Part shown: positions 6,221 through 48,679 of the stretch, in pieces
How positions within the stretch are numbered: position 1 is the first letter of the stretch
Layout of the letters: every line of letters begins with the position of its first letter
Virus record (IMG/VR): IMGVR_UViG_3300038441_000458
Coordinates: 1 to 64,000 of that record
Reading direction: 5' to 3' (one strand)
Length of the DNA stretch: 64,000 nucleotides
Origin: a virus
Made by a program: the position numbers and the translations under genes
The notes under the pieces: generated by a model
What the model saw: only the letters and a program-made list of their open reading frames with translations
Told to the model about the DNA's origin: nothing
Databases searched by the model: none

Positions 6221-6297
6221 CGCGGGTTAGCTCAGTCCGGCAGAGCAGCGGGCTCATAACCCGATTGTCACAGGTTCAAATCCTGTACCCGCCACCA
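6221..6297 (+). tRNA. tRNA-Met(CAU) with initiator features
   Basis: 77 nt including an encoded CCA end. The anticodon loop is CTCATAA (anticodon CAU) on a stem with three consecutive G:C pairs (GGG/CCC), the hallmark of initiator tRNAs. With U8-A9 fixing the numbering, C1 faces C72, an unpaired acceptor end, which is the other initiator hallmark (C1xA72 in E. coli). The D-stem GCTC/GAGC has the elongator-type C11:G24, so the molecule is a hybrid. The T-arm ACAGG-TTCAAAT-CCTGT is canonical. It may act in formyl-Met initiation; this is inference. Confidence 0.85.
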
Positions 6298-6983: not shown

Positions 6984-7267
6984 GCCAGCGACCAGGACCA
7001 GTGAACCAGCGACACGTCGAGCTCAGTCGATTCGTCCACCGGGCGAAGACGGTCGAGAACCAGCGAGGATCGTTCAGCACGGTAGACATCATCACCCAGG
7101 AGGAGATTGCAACGCTCAGGGAAGCGAGCGACATCATCATGGCACTGGCGACGCTGGCAGAGGCGCAGATACCACGCAAGGTGCTGATCGCCCTAGTGGG
7201 CAACGCGAGCGGCGTGCTGGCGATTGCCGACGAATTGGACAATCCAGACCAGAATTGGAAGGGCTAG
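6980..7267 (+). CDS. Unknown helical early protein
   Basis: This gene encodes 95 residues, ATG overlapping the previous stop. It is predicted helical (EEIATLREASDIIMALATLAE) with no metal site or membrane span. Translationally coupled to its neighbours, so probably the same transcript from the promoter at 6391. Confidence 0.5.
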   Translation: MSQRPGPVNQRHVELSRFVHRAKTVENQRGSFSTVDIITQEEIATLREASDIIMALATLAEAQIPRKVLIALVGNASGVLAIADELDNPDQNWKG

Positions 7268-7269
7268 AC

Positions 7270-8010
7270 ATGGAGAGCATCATTCGGGGATGCGGGACCA
7301 GGATCAAAGGCGGCGTGTATATCGAAGTCGGATTCGCAGAGGACGGCATCGGGGAGCCGTTGGAGCACTTCCTGATCTGCCCGCCAGTCCCGGTTGACAA
7401 GGAGCGCCAGGGCATCTCCCCCATCGGCGTGACCATCCTGCACGATGAGCGCAGCGGCGTGAACCACGTGCTCGACTGGATAGGGAAGGAGAACTACCCG
7501 AACGTCGCAGATTTCATCGAGGAGGCGCGGCGCTACGGCATCAGCAGGCGCGCCAGCAAGCAACTCCCATTCGAGTTGCTGACGCCAGGGAGCAGGCTGA
7601 TCCTTGCCCACGAACGGGCGATCATCCTGAACCCGGAAGACTATCGGACCGCGATCATGCAGGAGGCGGAGGACTATCTGCTGGTCGGCATCCCGGAACC
7701 TTGCCCGAACTCGAAGCACAACGCGCTCGGCAAGCACGGCACCGCGACGATGTGCCAGGCGCTCTACTACGAAGACGTGGAAGGCGAGTTGTCGCTGGAC
7801 CCGACCGATGCACCACGAAGCGTCGTGCGACGAATCGGGAGCACGGCGTACAACGCGAGGACGCGACCGCATGGCGTGACGCCGAAGTACGGGCTCGGCA
7901 TCTTCGCGAGTTTCCCGATCACGAACATTGCGGTGATCGCAGGCGACCATGAAGCGGCAGAACAGGCGGCGCGCAAGAGCACGCTGGACGTTCGCATCGA
8001 AAACGAATAG
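7270..8010 (+). CDS. Unknown 246-residue early protein
   Basis: The ATG is 3 nt after the upstream stop with GGAAGGG before it. The protein has conserved-looking Cys residues in GCGTRIKGGVY, LICPPVP, EPCPNSKHN and TATMCQALYYED, suggesting a metal site, and a mixed alpha/beta core. I do not recognise the family. It sits upstream of the ParB gene in a tightly packed early operon. Confidence 0.5.
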   Translation: MESIIRGCGTRIKGGVYIEVGFAEDGIGEPLEHFLICPPVPVDKERQGISPIGVTILHDERSGVNHVLDWIGKENYPNVADFIEEARRYGISRRASKQLPFELLTPGSRLILAHERAIILNPEDYRTAIMQEAEDYLLVGIPEPCPNSKHNALGKHGTATMCQALYYEDVEGELSLDPTDAPRSVVRRIGSTAYNARTRPHGVTPKYGLGIFASFPITNIAVIAGDHEAAEQAARKSTLDVRIENE

Positions 8011-8289: not shown

Positions 8290-9189
8290 ATGACAGACAC
8301 GACACAGCGAGACCTTGCAGACCTGTACGGCGACACCGAAGGCATGGATCGCCAGGAGACGGCAGACGTCCTCCTGCAACTGATCGAGGACCTTCCAGCG
8401 GCCGTGCCGGCCGATCTGAAGCGGAGCATCCAGACACGCGGGCAGATGGTGCCAGTGATCCTCAACGCCAGCGAGGACCGCGAGACCTACACGATCATCG
8501 ACGGGCGGCGACGCATCCGGGCGATGCGCGACCTTGGGATGGTGGCAGTGAGCGCGGTCGTGTACAACGCGCCAGACATGGTGGGGTGGGCTATGGCGGC
8601 GACCGCGAACGCGGTCCGGGGAGACAACCCGGAGAATGAGCTAGAGGCGATTGAGGCACTGACCGGCGAAGGCTACACGGAGAGCCAGATTGCGCAGGCA
8701 ACCGGCATGAGCGTCCAGACGATCAGGAAGCGCGAGCGGTTGCTGGTGCTGGCCCCGATCCTTCGGGAAGGATTGAAGACCGGCAAGCTGGCCATTGGCG
8801 TGGCAGAGCAGATCGCGAAGCTGCCAGAGGAGGCGCGAGCGCGAGCGGCCGCGATCTTTGCGGAGGACGGGAAGATCACCGGACACCAGGTGCGGGAGTT
8901 GCTGGCCGTGGAGCGCGACGAAGCGACCGCGAGCCTGTCCGAGGCGATCTTCGGGGAGCCGGTTGACGAAGCGACCCGCTGGCGCACGACCTTGCGCCAG
9001 GCGAAGGAGCGCATGGACACGGCCGCATTCGACGCGGCGATGAAGGAGTTGGGGTATGTCCGGGCAGAAGTTGCGACCAGCGAAGCGGATCAAGGTGCAG
9101 CACCGGGAGGCGAGCCCGCAGGGACGCCAGTGGCCGGTAAGCGTAAAGTTGGGCGTCCCCGAAAGAATGCTCCAGCCACAACCGGATGA
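8290..9189 (+). CDS. ParB-family DNA-binding protein
   Basis: This gene encodes 299 residues. Residues 30-115 form a ParB/Srx N-terminal domain with DGRRRIRAMRDLG (71-83), equivalent to the nucleotide-binding GERRxRA box of ParB CTPases. About 125-215 is the KorB/ParB HTH (YTESQIAQATGMSVQTIRK), followed by RERLLVLAPILREGL and GKLAIGVAEQIAKLPEE. The tail carries an AT-hook-like GRPRKNAP. Known ParB proteins load at parS and slide on DNA; a perfect parS lies 1.4 kb downstream. No ParA is visible. The 3' end overlaps the next gene by 134 nt. Confidence 0.75.
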   Translation: MTDTTQRDLADLYGDTEGMDRQETADVLLQLIEDLPAAVPADLKRSIQTRGQMVPVILNASEDRETYTIIDGRRRIRAMRDLGMVAVSAVVYNAPDMVGWAMAATANAVRGDNPENELEAIEALTGEGYTESQIAQATGMSVQTIRKRERLLVLAPILREGLKTGKLAIGVAEQIAKLPEEARARAAAIFAEDGKITGHQVRELLAVERDEATASLSEAIFGEPVDEATRWRTTLRQAKERMDTAAFDAAMKELGYVRAEVATSEADQGAAPGGEPAGTPVAGKRKVGRPRKNAPATTG

Positions 9190-10212: not shown

Positions 10213-10857
10213 ATGGAAGGGCAAAAGGCGTTCGAGCCAGCGAAGCACCTGTCGCTGGTGAGTGGGAACGAATACCTCGAGGTGAAGTGGCGGCTGGTGT
10301 GGCTCCGCAGCGAGCACCCGGACGCCAGCATCGAGACGGAACTGGTGAAGCACGCGAACGGCGAAGCGATCTTCCGGGCGAATGTGTCGATCCCAGGAGG
10401 CGGGTCGTCAACCGGCTACGGAAGCGAAGACACGCAGTCGTTCGGGGACTACATCGAGAAGGCGGAGACGAAGGCTATCGGACGGGCGCTTGCTGCCCTC
10501 GGGTTCGGGACACAGTTCTGCATGGACTTCGACTTCGGCGCGAGTCACGGCAAGGTCGTTGACGCACCGGTCAACACCAGAGGCGGAGGCGGGTACAGTG
10601 TTTCACGTGAAACACCCGCGAGCGGAGGCGGGTACAACGGTCCGGCACCGTCGAGTACGGACCGGGCGACCGCGAAACAGATGGGCGCGATCTGGGGCGC
10701 GAAGAAACGCAACGGCATCAGCGACCAGGACTTCGGCGACCTGTGCTACGACACGGTGGGCGTTCGGGACATTGGCGACCATGACGACCGGTCCGGCGAA
10801 GTGCCGAACATTAGCAAGGCTGACGCGAGCGCGATCATCCAGGCGCTGATGGGCTAG
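10213..10857 (+). CDS. Rad52/Erf-like single-strand annealing protein
   Basis: This gene encodes 214 residues. DYIEKAETKAIGRALAALGF (about 79-98) is the signature helix of phage annealing proteins of the Rad52/Sak-Erf superfamily, preceded by a beta-rich core (LEVKWRLVWLR and ETELVKHANGEAIF). A Gly/Ser-rich linker (120-145) leads to a helical C-terminal domain (TAKQMGAIWGAKKRNGISD), typical of SSAPs that bind SSB or ssDNA. It would anneal complementary single strands in recombination-dependent replication. The linker DNA carries a perfect parS palindrome. The family call is from motif memory, not a search. Confidence 0.6.
   Translation: MEGQKAFEPAKHLSLVSGNEYLEVKWRLVWLRSEHPDASIETELVKHANGEAIFRANVSIPGGGSSTGYGSEDTQSFGDYIEKAETKAIGRALAALGFGTQFCMDFDFGASHGKVVDAPVNTRGGGGYSVSRETPASGGGYNGPAPSSTDRATAKQMGAIWGAKKRNGISDQDFGDLCYDTVGVRDIGDHDDRSGEVPNISKADASAIIQALMG
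10599..10614 (+). promoter_or_regulatory. Perfect chromosomal-type parS palindrome
   Basis: TGTTTCACGTGAAACA, a perfect 16-bp palindrome identical to the consensus centromere site of bacterial chromosomal ParB (as in Bacillus). It lies in the DNA encoding the variable Gly/Ser linker of the annealing protein (reading S-V-S-R-E-T), where protein constraint should be low. The phage encodes a ParB at 8290. Confidence 0.75.
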
Positions 10858-12470: not shown

Positions 12471-12728
12471 AAGGGCTGGCGCGCCAGCCGCCAGGAGCGG
12501 GTCCAAGGAACAGAAACCCGACTCCCATCACGATGGTAGACCGGCGAGGAGGAGCCGACAACATCGGCGGGACAAAACGACGGCGAAGGCGCATACTTGA
12601 GAAACGGAAACCGCTCCCTGTTGGCACGTGGGAGCGGTTACCTGTTTACATTTCCACCGGCGTCTCACGACCGGGTTACTGCGTCCAGTATACCACTGAT
12701 GGTATTGGATGCACAGGAGCACTACCCC
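12471..12728 (+). other. Regulatory gap before the replication operon
   Basis: 258 nt without a convincing gene. It holds the hairpin at 12609-12639 and an imperfect inverted repeat around 12687-12711 (CCAGTATACCA / TGGTATTGG), which could be an operator or cover a promoter. No TTGACA promoter of the repeated family is present here, unlike most operon starts in this genome. Confidence 0.5.
12609..12639 (+). terminator. Hairpin/terminator upstream of GIY-YIG gene
   Basis: Perfect 10-bp stem AACCGCTCCC/GGGAGCGGTT with an 11-nt loop, followed by ACCTGTTTACATTT, the nearest thing to a U-tract in this gap. Confidence 0.6.
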
Positions 12729-14710: not shown

Positions 14711-16119
14711 CCAGGACAGCCGACCCGGTTGACGCGTTCAGCAGCGTCGAGACAGAGAACATGCTGATCGGCGCACTCCTATTCGACCGCGACGCGATTG
14801 TGACTGTCGTGGACACGTTGACACCGGAGGACTTCACCTCACCAGGAGCGCGAGCAGCCTACGAGGCGGCGCTGCGATTGTGGAACCGGCCGCAGAAGGA
14901 AGCGCCAGACATTCTCAGCATCTCCGAGGAGTTGCGCGCAGCCGGGAAGGACTACCCCGACATTGACACGCTCATGTCGTGGATGACCGGACTGAACGGC
15001 GTCGGCTACGCGATCCACGCACCCTTCTACGCAGCCCGCATCGCCCGGTTGGCAAAGCGTCGACGGTTCGTCTCGGCGATGGGCGAGCAGATCATGGCGA
15101 TGCACCAGGACCCTGACCTCGACCCGATGGACGCGCTCGGGAAGGTTGCCGAACAGATCGCAGGCGACCAGGTGGGCACGACCGATGGACCGCGATCATT
15201 CGCCGACCTTGTCCCGGAGACCGTGCAGCGGATCGAGGACGAACGGCACGGACTGATCGAGCGGCTGGTGACACCGCTCGGGTTCCATGAGATTGACGAC
15301 ATTCTGGGAGGAGGACTATCGGCGCAGGACCTGTGCATTCTGGCGGCACGGAGCAGCATGGGGAAGACGGCGCTGGCGTCAGCCATGATGTACCACGCAG
15401 CGGAGACCGGGAACGTCCTGATGTTCTCGCTGGAAATGGGGGCGGATGCCGTCGTCCGGCGCACCATCGGCCGCGAAGGCGGCGTGTCCATGACGACGAT
15501 CAAGCAAGGCACGCTGAGCCCGGAGGAGTTCGATCGGTTCATGGTTGCCAGCGAGGAGGCGAGCCGAAAGACGATCTGGATCGACGACACGCCAGGACTG
15601 ACCACGGAGCGGATGATTGCGCGAGCGCAGCGGTTGAAGGCGGCAGGGAAGTTGAGCCTTGTCGTGATCGACTACATGGAGTTGATCGGCGACGGCAACA
15701 ACAGCGACCGGGAGGTGAACCAGCAGGCGAGAATCAGCAAGATCGTGGGACAACTGAAGTTCATGGCGAGGATTTGCAACGTGCCAGTGATCGTCCTCTG
15801 CCAGGTGAGCAGGGATGTTGACTTGCGCCAGGACAAGATGCCGACCCTTGCGCACCTGCGGTGGAGCGCGATGATCGAGCAGACCGCAGACGAAGTGTTC
15901 TTCCTGACGGCGCACGACCGCTACGTGGACCTCGGCATGGAGGAGCCAGACGAAGCGAAACGCGGCGTGGTGGACGTGTTGCTGGCGAAGCACCGTAATG
16001 GGAAGATCGGGCGCTTCGAACTTTACGTAGACGCCGAAACCATGAAGTACCAGAGCGCGAGACCGGCCCAACAGTGGACCGGCAAGGCATACGACGGGTT
16101 CACTGACGACCCGTTCTAG
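14707..16119 (+). CDS. dnaB: Replicative DnaB-type helicase
   Basis: This gene encodes 470 residues. The N-terminal DnaB domain begins SSVETENMLIGALLFDRDAI. The RecA-like domain has Walker A ARSSMGKTALA (about 213-223), the DnaB motif MFSLEMGADAVVRR, Walker B LVVIDYMELI and the H3/H4 region HLRWSAMIEQTADEV, where typical DnaBs have DLRxSG. It unwinds DNA at the fork as a hexamer with ATP hydrolysis. No primase or polymerase is encoded in this window, so it presumably works with host enzymes or genes outside. Confidence 0.9.
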   Translation: MTRTADPVDAFSSVETENMLIGALLFDRDAIVTVVDTLTPEDFTSPGARAAYEAALRLWNRPQKEAPDILSISEELRAAGKDYPDIDTLMSWMTGLNGVGYAIHAPFYAARIARLAKRRRFVSAMGEQIMAMHQDPDLDPMDALGKVAEQIAGDQVGTTDGPRSFADLVPETVQRIEDERHGLIERLVTPLGFHEIDDILGGGLSAQDLCILAARSSMGKTALASAMMYHAAETGNVLMFSLEMGADAVVRRTIGREGGVSMTTIKQGTLSPEEFDRFMVASEEASRKTIWIDDTPGLTTERMIARAQRLKAAGKLSLVVIDYMELIGDGNNSDREVNQQARISKIVGQLKFMARICNVPVIVLCQVSRDVDLRQDKMPTLAHLRWSAMIEQTADEVFFLTAHDRYVDLGMEEPDEAKRGVVDVLLAKHRNGKIGRFELYVDAETMKYQSARPAQQWTGKAYDGFTDDPF

Positions 16120-16335: not shown

Positions 16336-16643
16336 GCAACAGTTGGAAGGGACCATTCAGGGACAAGTATCACCAGACGCCAGCGGAGCGCCAGGCGGAG
16401 AAGGACGAAGCAGCCCGCGTCGAGCGGATCAGGAAGGAGGACCGCGAGAACCAGTTGACGCCAGGGAGCGACGAACACCTGCGGAACGTTCAGCAGCGAA
16501 ACATCAGGATCGTGAGCCAGGTGATCTACGACGCGGCGCACAAAGGAAACTTCGACCTCGAGACTGAAGTCGAAGCGTTGCTCGGGATGGTGCGAACACA
16601 CAAGCGGATCGAGCAGCGCATCGCCGGGAAGGACCAGGCATGA
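16332..16643 (+). CDS. Unknown charged helical protein
   Basis: This gene encodes 103 residues, start overlapping the previous stop. The first half is highly charged (ERQAEKDEAARVERIRKEDR), the second half helical (SQVIYDAAHKGNFDLE). No motif recognised. Coupled to the following gene through ATGA. Confidence 0.5.
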   Translation: MSNSWKGPFRDKYHQTPAERQAEKDEAARVERIRKEDRENQLTPGSDEHLRNVQQRNIRIVSQVIYDAAHKGNFDLETEVEALLGMVRTHKRIEQRIAGKDQA

Positions 16644-26027: not shown

Positions 26028-26321
26028 ATGTTCATGGCGCAGTTCCGATCCACCGGCGAGACCGAGTTCAAGACCTTCTACGGACCAGTCTTCACCCGCA
26101 CTCGGGCGCAGGAAGCAATCGACGACGCGGCACCATGCGGCCGCGAGTACCGGATCGTGGAGACACCGGAGTTGTTCAACATCGACATTCTCCCGGAGAC
26201 CATTCGCCACTACTACCCGGCAGAGCGACCGTGGGTCGTGGACCTTGGGCAAGAGAACAACTGGAACACCTTCGCCACCCGCGAAGCAGCCGAACAGTTC
26301 ATGGCGGAGGAGCGATCATGA
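26028..26321 (+). CDS. Unknown first protein of the modification operon
   Basis: This gene encodes 97 residues, alpha/beta (MAQFRSTGETEFKTFYGPVF, then RYYPAERPWVVDLG-like strand). No motif recognised. Its stop overlaps the methyltransferase ATG, so it is co-translated with it and might modulate it; that is inference. Confidence 0.5.
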   Translation: MFMAQFRSTGETEFKTFYGPVFTRTRAQEAIDDAAPCGREYRIVETPELFNIDILPETIRHYYPAERPWVVDLGQENNWNTFATREAAEQFMAEERS

Positions 26322-26998
26322 GACTGCTCGACCTCTTCTGCGGAGCCGGAGGAGCCGGAGAAGGCTACCGGCGAGCGGGATTCGATGTGACCGGCGTGGA
26401 CCTGAGTGCCATGCCGGAGAACCCGCACACGTTCATCCAGGCGGATGCGCTCGACTACCTGCGCGAGCACGGACACGAATACGACGCGATCCACGCCAGC
26501 CCGCCATGTCAGGCGCACAGCATCACCCGGAACATCTGGAAGGACAACGTCGCGTGGCAGGAGGCGCACACGGACATGATCGGCGCGACGCGTGACCTGT
26601 TGGAGGCGAGCGGCAAGCCCTACGTGATCGAGAACGTTCCCGGCGCACCGCTCCGCAACCCGATCACGCTGTGCGGAAACAGCTTCGGGCTCCGCGTCTA
26701 CCGGCACCGGCTGTTCGAGGCGAACTGGATGCTCATGGCGGCACCGCACGTGAAGCACGTCCATCGCGCAAGCTATGGCCGGATTCCGGTTGGCGAGGAG
26801 TTCTACACGATCAGCGGCCACTACGGCGACTTCGCCGGAGCGAGCGCGGCAATGGGCATCGACTGGATGACACATAAGCAACTGGCGCAGGCGATCCCGC
26901 CAGCCTACACGGAGCACATCGGTTTACAGTTACGGGAGTTGCTGGTAAACTTGCAAGATGAACACAAAGACATGCTCCCTGACGGGATGCGACCGTGA
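26318..26998 (+). CDS. C5-cytosine DNA methyltransferase
   Basis: This gene encodes 226 residues. Motif [21 protein letters not shown] binds S-adenosylmethionine; motif [12 protein letters not shown] carries the catalytic Cys; motif [12 protein letters not shown] has the ENV triplet. It transfers a methyl to cytosine C5. The target-recognition region is very short compared with restriction-type enzymes (300-400 residues), suggesting a short or loose recognition sequence. It overlaps the HNH gene by 41 nt, so its last dozen residues may derive from that insertion. It would make the 5mC substrate for the TET-like enzyme downstream. Confidence 0.88.
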
Positions 26999-27488
26999 AC
27001 ATTACGCGAGAGGATACTGTGCCCTTCACTATCAGCGGTGGCGCACGAAAGGCGACCCCGAACACAAAGGTGATGGACGATTCAGGCCAGGTCCCGACCC
27101 GCGTCGCCGATCAGAGCGAATGCGTTGCAGCGTTGACGAATGCGATCGAAATGTTGCAAGCAACGGCATGTGTCGGATGCATTGGGGAAGACAACAGCGC
27201 AGGGAAGCAGGAGTACCCGAGCGAAAAAAGTTCTTCGAACCAAGGAACCTCAAGAGCGGATACGTTCAGGTCCACGTTGACGGAAAATGGAAAATGGAGC
27301 ACCGGGTTGTCATGGAGAGGCACCTTGGGAGACCCCTCACACCCGAGGAGACAGTTCACCACAAAAACGGACATCGAGCCGACAACAAAATTACCAACCT
27401 CGAACTGTGGACATCAAAGCACCCTGCCGGACAACGCGCCGAGGACCTACTCGAATTCGCGCGCGAGATCATCAAGTTGTACGGATGA
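26958..27488 (+). CDS. HNH endonuclease with Cys-rich N-terminus, likely mobile
   Basis: This gene encodes 176 residues. Two related Cys/His modules ([20 protein letters not shown] and [20 protein letters not shown]) precede an HNH_3 domain: [20 protein letters not shown], then [18 protein letters not shown]. Base use is visibly more A-rich than the surrounding genes, and it sits between the methyltransferase and the rest of the operon, both signs of a homing-type insertion. It overlaps the methyltransferase 3' end. Confidence 0.8.
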
Positions 27489-27542
27489 CGATAAGCACAT
27501 CGGGAACCAACTGATGCGCATTCTGACCGAAGGAGCAAACGA

Positions 27543-28754
27543 ATGAGCAAGGAACTCAGCAAGGTTGGCGACCAGATCACCGTGGTCGATAGCGACGTTG
27601 CCGAAATGAAGGTGACGCTTCACCTCATGGACGGTTGGCTGTCGGTGACAGCAGAGCGTCCACACCACATCTTCCAGGTGCCAGTGCGGGCACCAGCGCT
27701 GATGCAGGCGAGCCCGGAGGAGTCCACGCTACGCCGGATTGCCGACCTCGAGAAGGCGGTGAAGGCGAACGCTGAGATGTGCGACGCGCGATCAACATGG
27801 GCGCACGAAGCGAATACGCAACTCATGGCAAAGATCAATGCGTTGCAGCCGGAGGCATCAGCGGAGGACCAGGAGTGGACCTGCACGGCGTGTTACGGAC
27901 GCGGCGACGCCAGAGGCGAGAACGATGAAGGGTGGGAGTGCAGCGTGTGCGACGGCACCGGCGAGCAGGAGCCGGAGCCGGAGCCGATCACGGCGCGAGG
28001 ACCGAAGGCGCACTCGCTGAAGACGCTGCGGCCGTTCTTCGAGGCGATCAAGCTGCGAGAGAAGACCTTCGAGATACGGAAGAACGACCGCGACTACCGG
28101 GTGGGAGACACGCTGATACTGTGCGAGTGGACCGGCGAGGCGTATACCGGGCGAATGCTGGACACCGAAGTGACCTACATCACGGACTACGACCAGCAGC
28201 CAGGCTACGTCGTGATGGGACTTCGCCTGTTGGAGCGAGGCGTTGACGACCAGGAAGCGTGGGAGGTGATTGCAGAGCGGGCGTGTGATGAATACTTCGA
28301 GCAGCCAATTTGGCATGCCCTCTCTTCGGCCGGGAAGGACTCTTGGCGGCAGGTGGCGCGCGCGGTCGTTGCAGAGGCGGTCAGGCGAGACATTGTGGTG
28401 TCGCACCCGCAACTGAAGCGCGAGCGCGAGAACGTTGCAGCGATCACCCGCGAGAAGACCATCGGCGAGTTCAAGCAGGCACCGTCCCAGCACGTTCCAC
28501 CCGAGGATCAGCCTGCGATGAATGCCGATGAGGCGGCAGACCTCCCCTCGCTGACGTGGGGGCACCTCACGGCCGCACACAATGCGTTCAAGGCGCATCG
28601 CCAGCAGTATCCAGACGAGAACGCAGAGTGGGGCGCGATGGGCACGGCGATCCTTGCCGCCAGGCGGTACGAGCGCAACCGGAAGACCAGCGACTACCCG
28701 ATCCCGGCCGTGTTCGCTGGCCCGTTCCGCAACCGGAAGGAGCCGACCGAATGA
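27543..28754 (+). CDS. DUF3850 (ASCH-like) protein with zinc knuckle
   Basis: This gene encodes 403 residues. Central CTACYGRGD and CSVCDGTG form a DnaJ-type zinc knuckle, then an EPEPEP linker, then DUF3850 (HSLKTLRPFFEAIKLREKTF, RKNDRDYRVGDTLILCEW), an ASCH-superfamily domain. ASCH/YTH-like folds bind RNA or modified bases, so it may recognise or protect modified DNA here; that is inference. The C-terminal 170 residues are helical and unassigned. Confidence 0.65.
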   Translation: MSKELSKVGDQITVVDSDVAEMKVTLHLMDGWLSVTAERPHHIFQVPVRAPALMQASPEESTLRRIADLEKAVKANAEMCDARSTWAHEANTQLMAKINALQPEASAEDQEWTCTACYGRGDARGENDEGWECSVCDGTGEQEPEPEPITARGPKAHSLKTLRPFFEAIKLREKTFEIRKNDRDYRVGDTLILCEWTGEAYTGRMLDTEVTYITDYDQQPGYVVMGLRLLERGVDDQEAWEVIAERACDEYFEQPIWHALSSAGKDSWRQVARAVVAEAVRRDIVVSHPQLKRERENVAAITREKTIGEFKQAPSQHVPPEDQPAMNADEAADLPSLTWGHLTAAHNAFKAHRQQYPDENAEWGAMGTAILAARRYERNRKTSDYPIPAVFAGPFRNRKEPTE

Positions 28755-29221
28755 GCGACCAGAGCAGCGGCATCATCGGATTCATCAAGGCACGCGAGCA
28801 GGCGCTCGACAACAGCAGGGCGCACACGGAGAGCCCGCTGACCAGCCACCGCGTCGACAAAATCCTTCAGGACTGCCGCATCCGGGAAGGCGAGGACGAA
28901 CTGACGATGATCGTCGTCGAAGGCATCCAGCGCGTCTACGGATTCCACCCGCAGCGGTTGGCCGCGCACCGCGAGGACATTCGGCTGATGCTCGGCGAAC
29001 TGGACGATACGTTCCAGGAGGAGAAGGGCGGCTGGTCGTTCCTGAACGCCTGCATGGACCGGCGCGGCGACCAGTGGACAGACCTGCACCCGACGATGGA
29101 GGCGCTGCTGGTGATGGGCCAGGCGCTCGACCTTGGCGCGTTCATGCCAGGACGCGAGTTGTGGCCGATCCTGCCAGGCGGGATGCCGTACTACGTTTGC
29201 GCGAAGGAATGCCGACCATGA
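28751..29221 (+). CDS. Unknown protein of the modification operon
   Basis: This gene encodes 156 residues, helical (DQSSGIIGFIKAREQALDNS, LTMIVVEGIQRVYGFHP), start and stop both overlapping neighbours by ATGA. It has no catalytic motif I recognise. Invariant coupling to the dioxygenase suggests an accessory role. Confidence 0.5.
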   Translation: MSDQSSGIIGFIKAREQALDNSRAHTESPLTSHRVDKILQDCRIREGEDELTMIVVEGIQRVYGFHPQRLAAHREDIRLMLGELDDTFQEEKGGWSFLNACMDRRGDQWTDLHPTMEALLVMGQALDLGAFMPGRELWPILPGGMPYYVCAKECRP

Positions 29222-30090
29222 GCCAGGCACCATCAGCCGTTCGCGAGCGGGTGCTGACGAAGCGCACGCTGAACCTGAAGGACTACAAGCACCGGAGTCC
29301 GGCAGAGGAGGACTACAGCGAACTCATCACGGAGCCCTCGCTGATCTTCGATGCCGAAACCAACAATCTGGAAATCGTGTATCTGGTGCTGGACGACGAC
29401 ACCACGCAGATTGCGGAGGCGTTGCAGCGCATCCGGTTCGGGAAGACGGTGAGGACCAGCGGCCTGGTGACGACCAGCCGGGTGATCGGGAACCAGCCGC
29501 GCAACCTGCCGCAGCGCGACCACTGCACGGCGAGCAGCCTTGCCACGGAGGACCCGGAGGCGCATCACGTGATCGCGTCGTATGCGGAGAAGATCAGCCA
29601 GTACTATCACGACTACAACCCGGCGCTCTACGACCGGCACCAGGAGGCGACGCAGAAGGTGCTCGACGACTGGCGGATGGAAGGGAGCGTCTTCACCAGC
29701 GGCATCATCAACCGGAACAACCCGCTGAGCTACCACTTCGACGCAGGCAACTTCAAGAACGTTTGGAGCAACATGCTGGTGCTGAAGCACGACGTGACCG
29801 GAGGCTACCTGAGCGTCCCGGAGTACGACGTTGCGTTCGCCTTGCCGAACAACAGCCTACTGATGTTCGACGGGCAGAGCCTCCTGCACGGCGTGACGCC
29901 TATCGGACGGCACAGCGAGGACGCCTACCGCTACAGCATCGTGTTCTACAGCCTGAAGCAGATGTGGCAGTGCCTTCCGGTCACGGACGAATTGATCCGC
30001 ATTCGGAAGCGGAGGACAGACCGCGAGCGAGCCCGCGCCAGGGGAGAAGTGGACCAGACGATCATCGACCAGAAGGACCGCAAGCAGTGA
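29218..30090 (+). CDS. TET/JBP-like 2OG-Fe(II) dioxygenase
   Basis: This gene encodes 290 residues. The double-stranded beta-helix core has the iron ligands His173 and Asp175 (LSYHFDAGNF), distal His224 (SLLHGVTPI) and Arg239 (YRYSIVFY) for 2-oxoglutarate. INRNNPLSYHFDAGN and SVPEYDVAFALPNNSLLMFD match TET/JBP-family phage enzymes, which oxidise 5-methyl groups of pyrimidines in DNA. With the C5-methyltransferase upstream the expected reaction is 5mC to 5hmC. A thymine-hydroxylating JBP activity is the main alternative. Translationally coupled on both sides. Confidence 0.8.
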   Translation: MSQAPSAVRERVLTKRTLNLKDYKHRSPAEEDYSELITEPSLIFDAETNNLEIVYLVLDDDTTQIAEALQRIRFGKTVRTSGLVTTSRVIGNQPRNLPQRDHCTASSLATEDPEAHHVIASYAEKISQYYHDYNPALYDRHQEATQKVLDDWRMEGSVFTSGIINRNNPLSYHFDAGNFKNVWSNMLVLKHDVTGGYLSVPEYDVAFALPNNSLLMFDGQSLLHGVTPIGRHSEDAYRYSIVFYSLKQMWQCLPVTDELIRIRKRRTDRERARARGEVDQTIIDQKDRKQ

Positions 30091-47844: not shown

Positions 47845-47921
47845 GCGTCTTTAGCCCAATTGGCAGAGGCGACCGCTTCAAAGGCGGTAGGTTCCAGGTT
47901 CGAATCCTGGAAGACGCACCA
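47845..47921 (+). tRNA. tRNA-Leu(CAA), short variable loop
   Basis: 77 nt with encoded CCA. Acceptor GCGTCTT/AAGACGC, anticodon stem ACCGC/GCGGT with loop TTCAAAG (anticodon CAA), T-arm CCAGG-TTCGAAT-CCTGG. The variable region is only AGGTT, whereas bacterial tRNA-Leu normally has a long variable arm, so its charging identity is uncertain. Confidence 0.8.
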
Positions 47922-47992
47922 GGTGGTTGTAGTCGGAAACGATTCCCACCGAAGACCAGCGGGGAGTTGTTTGCCCTTCGACCCGCTGGCAT
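47922..47992 (+). other. Structured spacer in tRNA array
   Basis: Two hairpins: GGTGG/CCACC (47922-47950) and CCAGCGGG/CCCGCTGG (47956-47989). No anticodon arm is identifiable. Possibly a decayed tRNA or a processing structure. Confidence 0.45.
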
Positions 47993-48075
47993 GGATGGTG
48001 ACTGGCAGGACGAAGACACCCGCTTGAAACGGGCTGGCCCACCAGGGCTCCAGGGTTCGATTCCCTGACCATCCT
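47993..48075 (+). tRNA. tRNA-Ser(TGA)
   Basis: Acceptor GGATGGT/ACCATCC, anticodon stem CCCG/CGGG with loop CTTGAAA (anticodon UGA), class II variable arm (CTGGCCCACCAGGG), T-arm CAGGG-TTCGATT-CCCTG. The D-arm is poorly formed and CCA is not fully encoded. Identity fits serine by anticodon and long arm. Confidence 0.75.
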
Positions 48076-48093
48076 CCGCTGACGAATAGGCGA

Positions 48094-48167
48094 AGTCCCG
48101 TAGCTCAACAGGGAGAGCACTGGTTGAAAGACACCAGAGGCACCAGGCTCAACACCTGGCGGGTGAT
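48094..48167 (+). tRNA. Degenerate Phe-like tRNA
   Basis: D-arm GCTC/GAGC is good, and CTGGT/ACCAG can form an anticodon stem, but its loop TGAAAGAC is 8 nt; GAA would be the anticodon. T-stem CCAGG/CCTGG has the non-canonical loop CTCAACA, and only four acceptor pairs form (CCCG/CGGG). Probably a decayed or atypical tRNA. Confidence 0.45.
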
Positions 48168-48209
48168 GCAAGTACGTCAATCCTGAATCAGCCAGGATAG
48201 TCGGCGACA

Positions 48210-48282
48210 CGGTGTCTGGCCCAATTGGCAGGGCACCCGGTTTGGGACCGGGAGATTGCAGGTTCGAGCCCTGCGACGCCGA
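48210..48282 (+). tRNA. tRNA-Pro(TGG)
   Basis: Acceptor CGGTGTC/GACGCCG (one G-U) with the C1:G72 pair typical of proline tRNAs, anticodon stem CCCGG/CCGGG with loop TTTGGGA (anticodon UGG), T-arm GCAGG-TTCGAGC-CCTGC. Confidence 0.88.
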
Positions 48283-48283
48283 C

Positions 48284-48388
48284 CGGGAAGGGTTCCATCC
48301 TCCCTTCCCACACCGCAGGCGGAACCAAGCGCCATCTGCGGCGAGCCCGGAACAGGGTAACTTGACCCTTCCCCCGGTCCGGGCTCAT
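48284..48388 (+). other. Structured spacer in tRNA array
   Basis: Three consecutive hairpins: GGGAAGGG/CCCTTCCC (48285-48309), CCGCAG/CTGCGG (48313-48341) and GAGCCCGGA/TCCGGGCTC (48343-48386) with an inner AGGGT/ACCCT stem. No tRNA core is recognisable. May guide processing or be tRNA remnants. Confidence 0.5.
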
Positions 48389-48461
48389 GCCAGTGAAGCT
48401 CATGAGGATGAGCGGCTGTTTTGTAAACAGCAGGTAGCGGGTTCGATTCCTGCGACTGGCT
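48389..48461 (+). tRNA. tRNA-Thr(TGT)
   Basis: Acceptor GCCAGT/ACTGGC with a G7-G66 mismatch, D-arm GCTC/GAGC, anticodon stem GCTGT/ACAGC with loop TTTGTAA (anticodon UGU), T-arm GCGGG-TTCGATT-CCTGC. Confidence 0.85.
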
Positions 48462-48469
48462 CCGGCGAT

Positions 48470-48593
48470 GCGCGAGGATTAGATTCGACCCTGCCTCGCG
48501 AGCAGCCGAACGGGAGCGGCAGGGATTGTTGTCATGACTTTATTTGCAGAGTTCATGGTGGGCGGCGATCCCTGCTCAACCCGTTACCCGCGA
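48470..48593 (+). other. Structured spacer, tRNA-like remnant
   Basis: Contains CGCGAGG/CCTCGCG (about 48473-48500) and an 8-bp pair GCAGGGAT (48519-48526)/ATCCCTGC (48568-48575) closing 41 nt, like an acceptor stem without recognisable arms. No gene. Confidence 0.4.
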
Positions 48594-48679
48594 GGACCGG
48601 CACACTCATTGGCGAGAGTAGCTGGCTGTAAACCAGTGGCGCACGCGCTTTGGCGGTTCGATTCCGTCCCGATCCACCA
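48594..48679 (+). tRNA. tRNA-Tyr(GTA)
   Basis: 86 nt, class II, with CCA encoded. Acceptor GGACCGG/CCGATCC (one C-A mismatch), D-arm ACTC/GAGT, anticodon loop CTGTAAA (anticodon GUA), long variable arm, T-arm GGCGG-TTCGATT-CCGTC. Confidence 0.8.

Follow-up and report, generated by a model that had tools for sequence, protein, structure and literature searches.

A canonical chromosomal parS site within a tailed-phage gene, a possible mimic of the host centromere

Why should a phage gene contain a perfect copy of the bacterial chromosomal parS site, and which ParB would read it? The question is raised by IMG/VR record IMGVR_UViG_3300038441_000458 (68,198 bp), of which positions 1 to 64,000, hereafter the window, were analyzed (Table 1). 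The record encodes a terminase, a portal, a head protein, a lysin and DnaB, and is therefore that of a tailed phage; no tyrosine integrase was found in it, the record being possibly incomplete. The conserved hypothetical gene preceding the phage ParB gene has a homologue near ParB in both relatives that carry a homologous ParB (G004 and G012), and, judging from this shared arrangement, the two genes form a replication-region module common to these relatives. Contamination by host chromosome was considered as a source of the site and rejected, as parS lies in the phage replication module and the order hypothetical gene, ParB, annealing-protein gene is also found in G012. Other features of the window may be mentioned here. 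The segment 10999-11580 weakly resembles the beta sliding clamp of DNA polymerase III (PF02767, 3.3e-4, which is under the cut-off), matches a PHROG processivity factor (3e-7) and probably encodes a phage sliding clamp. Five tRNA genes (Leu, Ser, Pro, Thr, Tyr) are clustered at 47845-48679, with a separate tRNA-Met gene at 6221-6297. Genes for a DNA methyltransferase, a member of an RNA-binding protein family (PHROG_986) and a queuine tRNA-ribosyltransferase-like protein lie in a row at 26135-30087 and may together serve to modify DNA or tRNA.

Table 1. Positions of the features discussed, in window coordinates.
Feature	Position	Strand	Evidence
Conserved hypothetical gene upstream of ParB	7267..8010	+	ORF translations
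Phage ParB-like protein, 299 aa, ParB_N CTPase fold and HTH_ParB	8290..9189	+	Pfam; alignment to chromosomal ParBs
Single-strand annealing / ssDNA-binding type protein, 214 aa, weak Rad52-like fold	10213..10857	+	PHROG_27776, AF2 model, Foldseek
15-bp direct repeat GCGGAGGCGGGTACA, left of parS	10583..10597	+	Read from sequence
Exact canonical chromosomal parS TGTTTCACGTGAAACA	10599..10614	.	Sequence match
15-bp direct repeat GCGGAGGCGGGTACA, right of parS	10622..10636	+	Read from sequence; 39 bp from left copy
DnaB-like replicative helicase, module context	14716..16119	+	Pfam 1.7e-67, PHROG_19

The existence of the site is established. TGTTTCACGTGAAACA is a perfect 16-bp palindrome that agrees with the chromosomal parS consensus at 16 of 16 positions, and it is the sole match in the window when zero to three mismatches are allowed, as well as the only exact copy in the entire record. 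An exact parS is expected 2.1e-6 times per window with a mononucleotide model, 1.8e-6 times with a second-order Markov model and 2.4e-7 times with a codon model. The initial annotation had thus correctly described a perfect site that chance would hardly produce, but its estimate of one in tens of thousands of windows was too generous, the computed expectation being about 2e-6 per window. The site is spelled by the codons AGT GTT TCA CGT GAA ACA (10597-10614), each of which is a minority codon in this phage; with the codon usage of this phage (GC3 0.78), the probability that SVSRET would be written so as to spell parS is about 1e-6. Two copies of the direct repeat GCGGAGGCGGGTACA bracket the site. 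Four more perfect 16-bp palindromes, none of them repeated, are found at positions 12474, 50955, 54640 and 62731 of the window, which makes five such palindromes including parS versus about 1.4 expected.

The gene that carries the site matches PHROG_27776 (4.7e-19), and the nearest named relatives of its product are annotated as 'ssDNA binding protein' in the Thermus phage P23-45 group (36–41% identity). The corresponding regions of three phages of this group contain no parS-like site with fewer than three mismatches. In the AlphaFold (AF2) model, an ordered N-terminal domain, for which Foldseek returned weak RAD52 matches (E 0.009), is followed by a disordered linker (residues 121-146), after which the C-terminal part is helical. 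The codons of the site specify residues 129-134, which according to this model fall within the predicted disordered linker, in line with the low-constraint location proposed for the site at the outset.

In relatives of the phage the site is not found at this place. The annealing-gene linker is without parS in all of 60 viral relatives, and all of 80 genomic loci of its relatives are without a site at three mismatches or fewer. Since the site is missing from the annealing gene of these 140 relatives, its presence here is a lineage-specific gain; by the same token, the relatives give no direct sign of selection on the parS of the window. Sites with one or two mismatches are present elsewhere in 3 of 37 related viral records, in one of them as TGTTTCACGTGGAACA, read VSRGT, in another structural gene; in G012 a site with two mismatches precedes the ParB gene by about 2.9 kb, and in G034 a parS-like site (1-2 mismatches) lies in the gene following the terminase. 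Single-protein searches of viral contigs revealed no close relatives of the annealing protein or of ParB, an alignment-based ParB search returned only the two relatives already known, and a nucleotide search gave no match among isolate phages. The initial annotation had reasoned that synonymous loss of the site in relatives, together with lack of binding by either ParB, would speak against a role. Half of this is what we see, the site being absent from the linker of all 140 relatives; however, loss in relatives is not decisive and does not prove that the site is meaningless, because parS comes, goes and shifts position in other phages.

The ParB-like protein encoded in the same module is the first of the two partners proposed at the outset. 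As first noted, its gene precedes the site by 1.4 kb (1.41 kb from its 3' end), and its product shows Pfam matches over cut-off to ParB_N and HTH_ParB (2.8e-08 and 1.8e-07). A helix-turn-helix is indeed present, although it is better described as a generic HTH_ParB domain than as KorB-type, and the CTP box is there too but reads DGRRRIRA and not GERRxRA. In Caulobacter ParB, parS is contacted by Q162, G170, K171, S172, R173, N178, G201 and R204, of which R173 is absolutely conserved among ParB orthologues (PMC7383237). At these eight positions, when aligned to chromosomal ParBs, the phage protein has E, G, M, S, V, K, G and E. Five of the eight contacts are therefore changed (Q162E, K171M, R173V, N178K and R204E) and only G170, S172 and G201 are kept; R173 and N178 are likewise absent from its two closest phage homologues (G004 and G012). 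This mismatch between the phage ParB and the parS site is established, and because the parS-reading residues are missing, R173 included, the phage ParB is probably not the partner of the site. The proposal that the phage loads its own ParB on parS is thus not borne out. No ParA-type ATPase (PF13614) was detected in the 68,198-bp record, possibly incomplete, while control genomes were positive, in agreement with the initial reading that ParA is absent. A self-contained phage ParABS would call for ParA, a ParB with the CTPase fold and helix-turn-helix, and the parS-reading residues; only the second of these is found.

To what extent phages in general carry this site was examined by an exact-parS scan of 2.9 million IMG/VR contigs. 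At least 120 stretches contain it, compared with 5 and 1 for two control palindromes of equal base composition, and chance therefore explains a few percent of the viral sites at most. Among the matches listed, 76 of 80 parS-bearing records have no ParB_N match, but many of these are short fragments, in which absence of ParB is weak evidence; of the listed records of at least 30 kb, 24 of 28 have none. That host-type parS recurs in viral records mostly without a detected ParB is nonetheless established. Half of the viral sites, among the matches listed, lie within open frames and mostly read VSRET, as in the window. Several of the genes that carry them belong to PHROGs for tail fibre, endolysin, prohead protease, head-tail adaptor, scaffold, primase-helicase and tail transglycosylase. 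Fragments of oriC were considered as a source of these matches and rejected, given the records without ParB_N and the many sites in phage genes. Homologous pairs of sites (L092/L109, in primase, and L055/L084) have an identical parS with flanks that are 73–85% identical; both members of each pair were picked by the exact pattern, so that they are not independent proof of conservation. In both L055 and L084 there are two parS at matching places: an intergenic one some 2 kb ahead of terL, and another within a lytic transglycosylase gene, some 2 kb past the terL start.

One group of related phages has an exact parS 18–143 bp upstream of terL. To avoid the bias of the exact pattern, 80 loci of this terL clade, which is unrelated to the phage of the window, were sampled by protein similarity alone, regardless of parS, and the 400 bp before terL were scanned in the 72 loci with at least 150 bp upstream. 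An exact parS was found at 13 of the 72 loci and at 11 of the 26 in the closest group. One further locus has a single-mismatch site, and the others are at background, where the mismatches number at least four; of five control palindromes, none came below three mismatches. Because parS-bearing members made up the query alignment, the fraction of positive loci is tilted towards them, but the all-or-none distribution is not. The distance from the site to terL varies among these phages. Taken from sequence comparison, this pattern fits a parS that lineages acquire, preserve unaltered for as long as it is of use, and then lose. In the clade L304-L382, marine phages with a common terL have an exact parS 33-143 bp before it (in L304, for example, upstream of position 387), and in some of them another palindromic variant, TGTTCCACGTGGAACA, lies close by. 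Among isolates, Pelagibacter phage HTVC027P (MN698241), of the same terL clade, has CGTTTCACGTGAAACA, with one mismatch, in an intergenic region at 16412. With its Pelagibacter host, it offers a first culturable test case.

Could a host ParB then be the partner? Among cellular proteins, those most similar to the annealing protein come almost entirely from Chloroflexota, in the main from Thermomicrobiales and Sphaerobacter. Searching 61 genomes of the proposed host order with the phage portal gave no match, and a Chloroflexota host is therefore probable at the phylum level only. Genomes of Chloroflexia contain canonical or one-mismatch parS, mostly in one or two copies, and Ktedonobacteria contain many; a reversed control pattern is missing from all Chloroflexota genomes scanned but one. 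The variants TGTTCCACGTGAAACA and CGTTTCACGTGAAACA found in phages also occur in Chloroflexota genomes. The ParBs of Thermomicrobiales and other Chloroflexota keep the signatures 'TQ..VA.RVG(K/R)SR..V.N.LR' and 'EGHARA', so that candidate-host ParB and parS match at the level of sequence. Since the phage ParB lacks the parS contacts and the candidate-host ParBs retain the signature, we infer that host ParB is the natural partner of the site. Of the two partners initially proposed, own or host ParB, it is the latter that gains indirect support, from the canonical parS and ParB of the likely host phylum, the excess of parS in viral records and the records free of ParB.

We therefore consider it rather probable, from sequence comparisons, that the phage parS is a functional mimic of the host centromere, a parasitic centromere or a decoy, that recruits host ParB. 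In an infected cell, or in one in a carrier state, the phage parS would be the point at which host ParB loads as a CTP-bound clamp, and the loaded clamps would slide across the flanking phage DNA. This could bring the host partition machinery (ParA, SMC) onto the phage genome, or it could draw ParB off a host chromosome that has possibly no more than one or two parS. Of these putative consequences, the use of host ParA to position or segregate phage DNA is ranked slightly above titration of host ParB. Against centromere mimicry, the site is single, lies within a coding sequence and has no counterpart in the same gene of any relative.

Other explanations have to be weighed against this one. The linker may simply happen to spell parS, by chance or neutral drift, with no role for the phage. 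The lack of conservation among the 60 viral and 80 genomic relatives would suit such a coincidence, as would a fast-evolving, predicted disordered linker and the fact that scanning many windows picks out rare matches. However, the expectation of 2e-6 per window and the 1–5 control matches versus at least 120 for parS in the viral collection, by which the probability that a random match is due to chance is about 4% at most, and lower at 63% GC, make this reading unlikely. A second possibility is that the phage ParB, despite its divergence, is the partner and that parS is its loading or operator site, in a two-part ParB-parS system without ParA. Their closeness in one module, and the homologous ParB in G012 together with the two-mismatch site upstream of it, would fit. 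The five changed contacts, including one that is absolutely conserved (PMC7383237), speak against it; moreover, the record of the closest homologue, G004, has no site at two mismatches or fewer, and most of the listed parS-bearing viral records (76 of 80) lack a ParB match. We regard this alternative as distinctly unlikely.

The palindrome could also serve another DNA-binding protein that happens to recognize the same sequence as ParB, for instance a Noc-like protein or a regulator of the phage or the host. Palindromes of 16 bp are used by many phage regulators, and in the terL clade the site is often intergenic just before terL, where an operator would also sit. This does not account for the full 16/16 consensus in unrelated phages, nor for the variants shared with Chloroflexota genomes, as expected of parS, and the site of the window is inside a gene, away from a promoter; we hold this for the least probable of the three.

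Recruitment of host ParB by a parS mimic has a precedent in another mobile element. The parS-like DR elements of SGI1 hijack the ParABS system of the IncC plasmid by binding its ParB, and SGI1 thereby gains stability while displacing the plasmid (PMC10954446). In both cases a mobile element without the partner carries a mimic of another replicon's parS, and the phage, like SGI1, has its mimic on an element with no cognate ParA/ParB pair. SGI1 is, however, an integrative element with a plasmid ParB as target and with binding shown, whereas here the proposed target is a chromosomal ParB, the element is a tailed phage and the case is made from sequence. The likeness to chromosomal ParABS (Spo0J/ParB-parS) lies in the identical 16-bp parS and in host ParBs that keep the parS-reading residues; the phage differs in its single site in a coding linker, with no ParA and no parAB operon near. 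Phage-plasmids such as P1 and N15 encode their own ParA/ParB and private centromeres. Extrachromosomal cluster A mycobacteriophages also use a ParB-parS type partition for maintenance (PMC7157519). These phages share with the present one elements of the ParB-parS type, but they have their own ParA/ParB and private centromeres, whereas in this record ParA was not detected, ParB is unmatched to parS and the site is of host type. A survey of phage proteins with the ParB-CTPase fold (PMC12704722) is related in that a ParB_N-fold protein is encoded in the same genome; it treats proteins, and the portion consulted does not mention phage-borne host-type parS. Among the open-licence papers searched, none described phage-borne host-type parS without cognate ParB. 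The principle of parS hijacking is thus known from SGI1, and its use by a phage against chromosomal ParB appears to be new.

Finally, we put at about even chances the broader idea that host-type parS without cognate ParB is widespread and convergently gained in tailed phages, a single exact site in a linker or beside terL loading host ParB for positioning, for segregation or for disabling host chromosome segregation. If host ParB does load on phage DNA, 16 bp would give the phage a handle on the segregation, SMC-loading and CTP-switch machinery at no gene cost. The phage-host conflict over chromosome segregation would then be directly testable, ParB would be a natural label of incoming phage DNA, and a reason would be at hand for the varying number of parS among some hosts. 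The many unrelated phages with parS suggest a recurring way of borrowing a host segregation protein.
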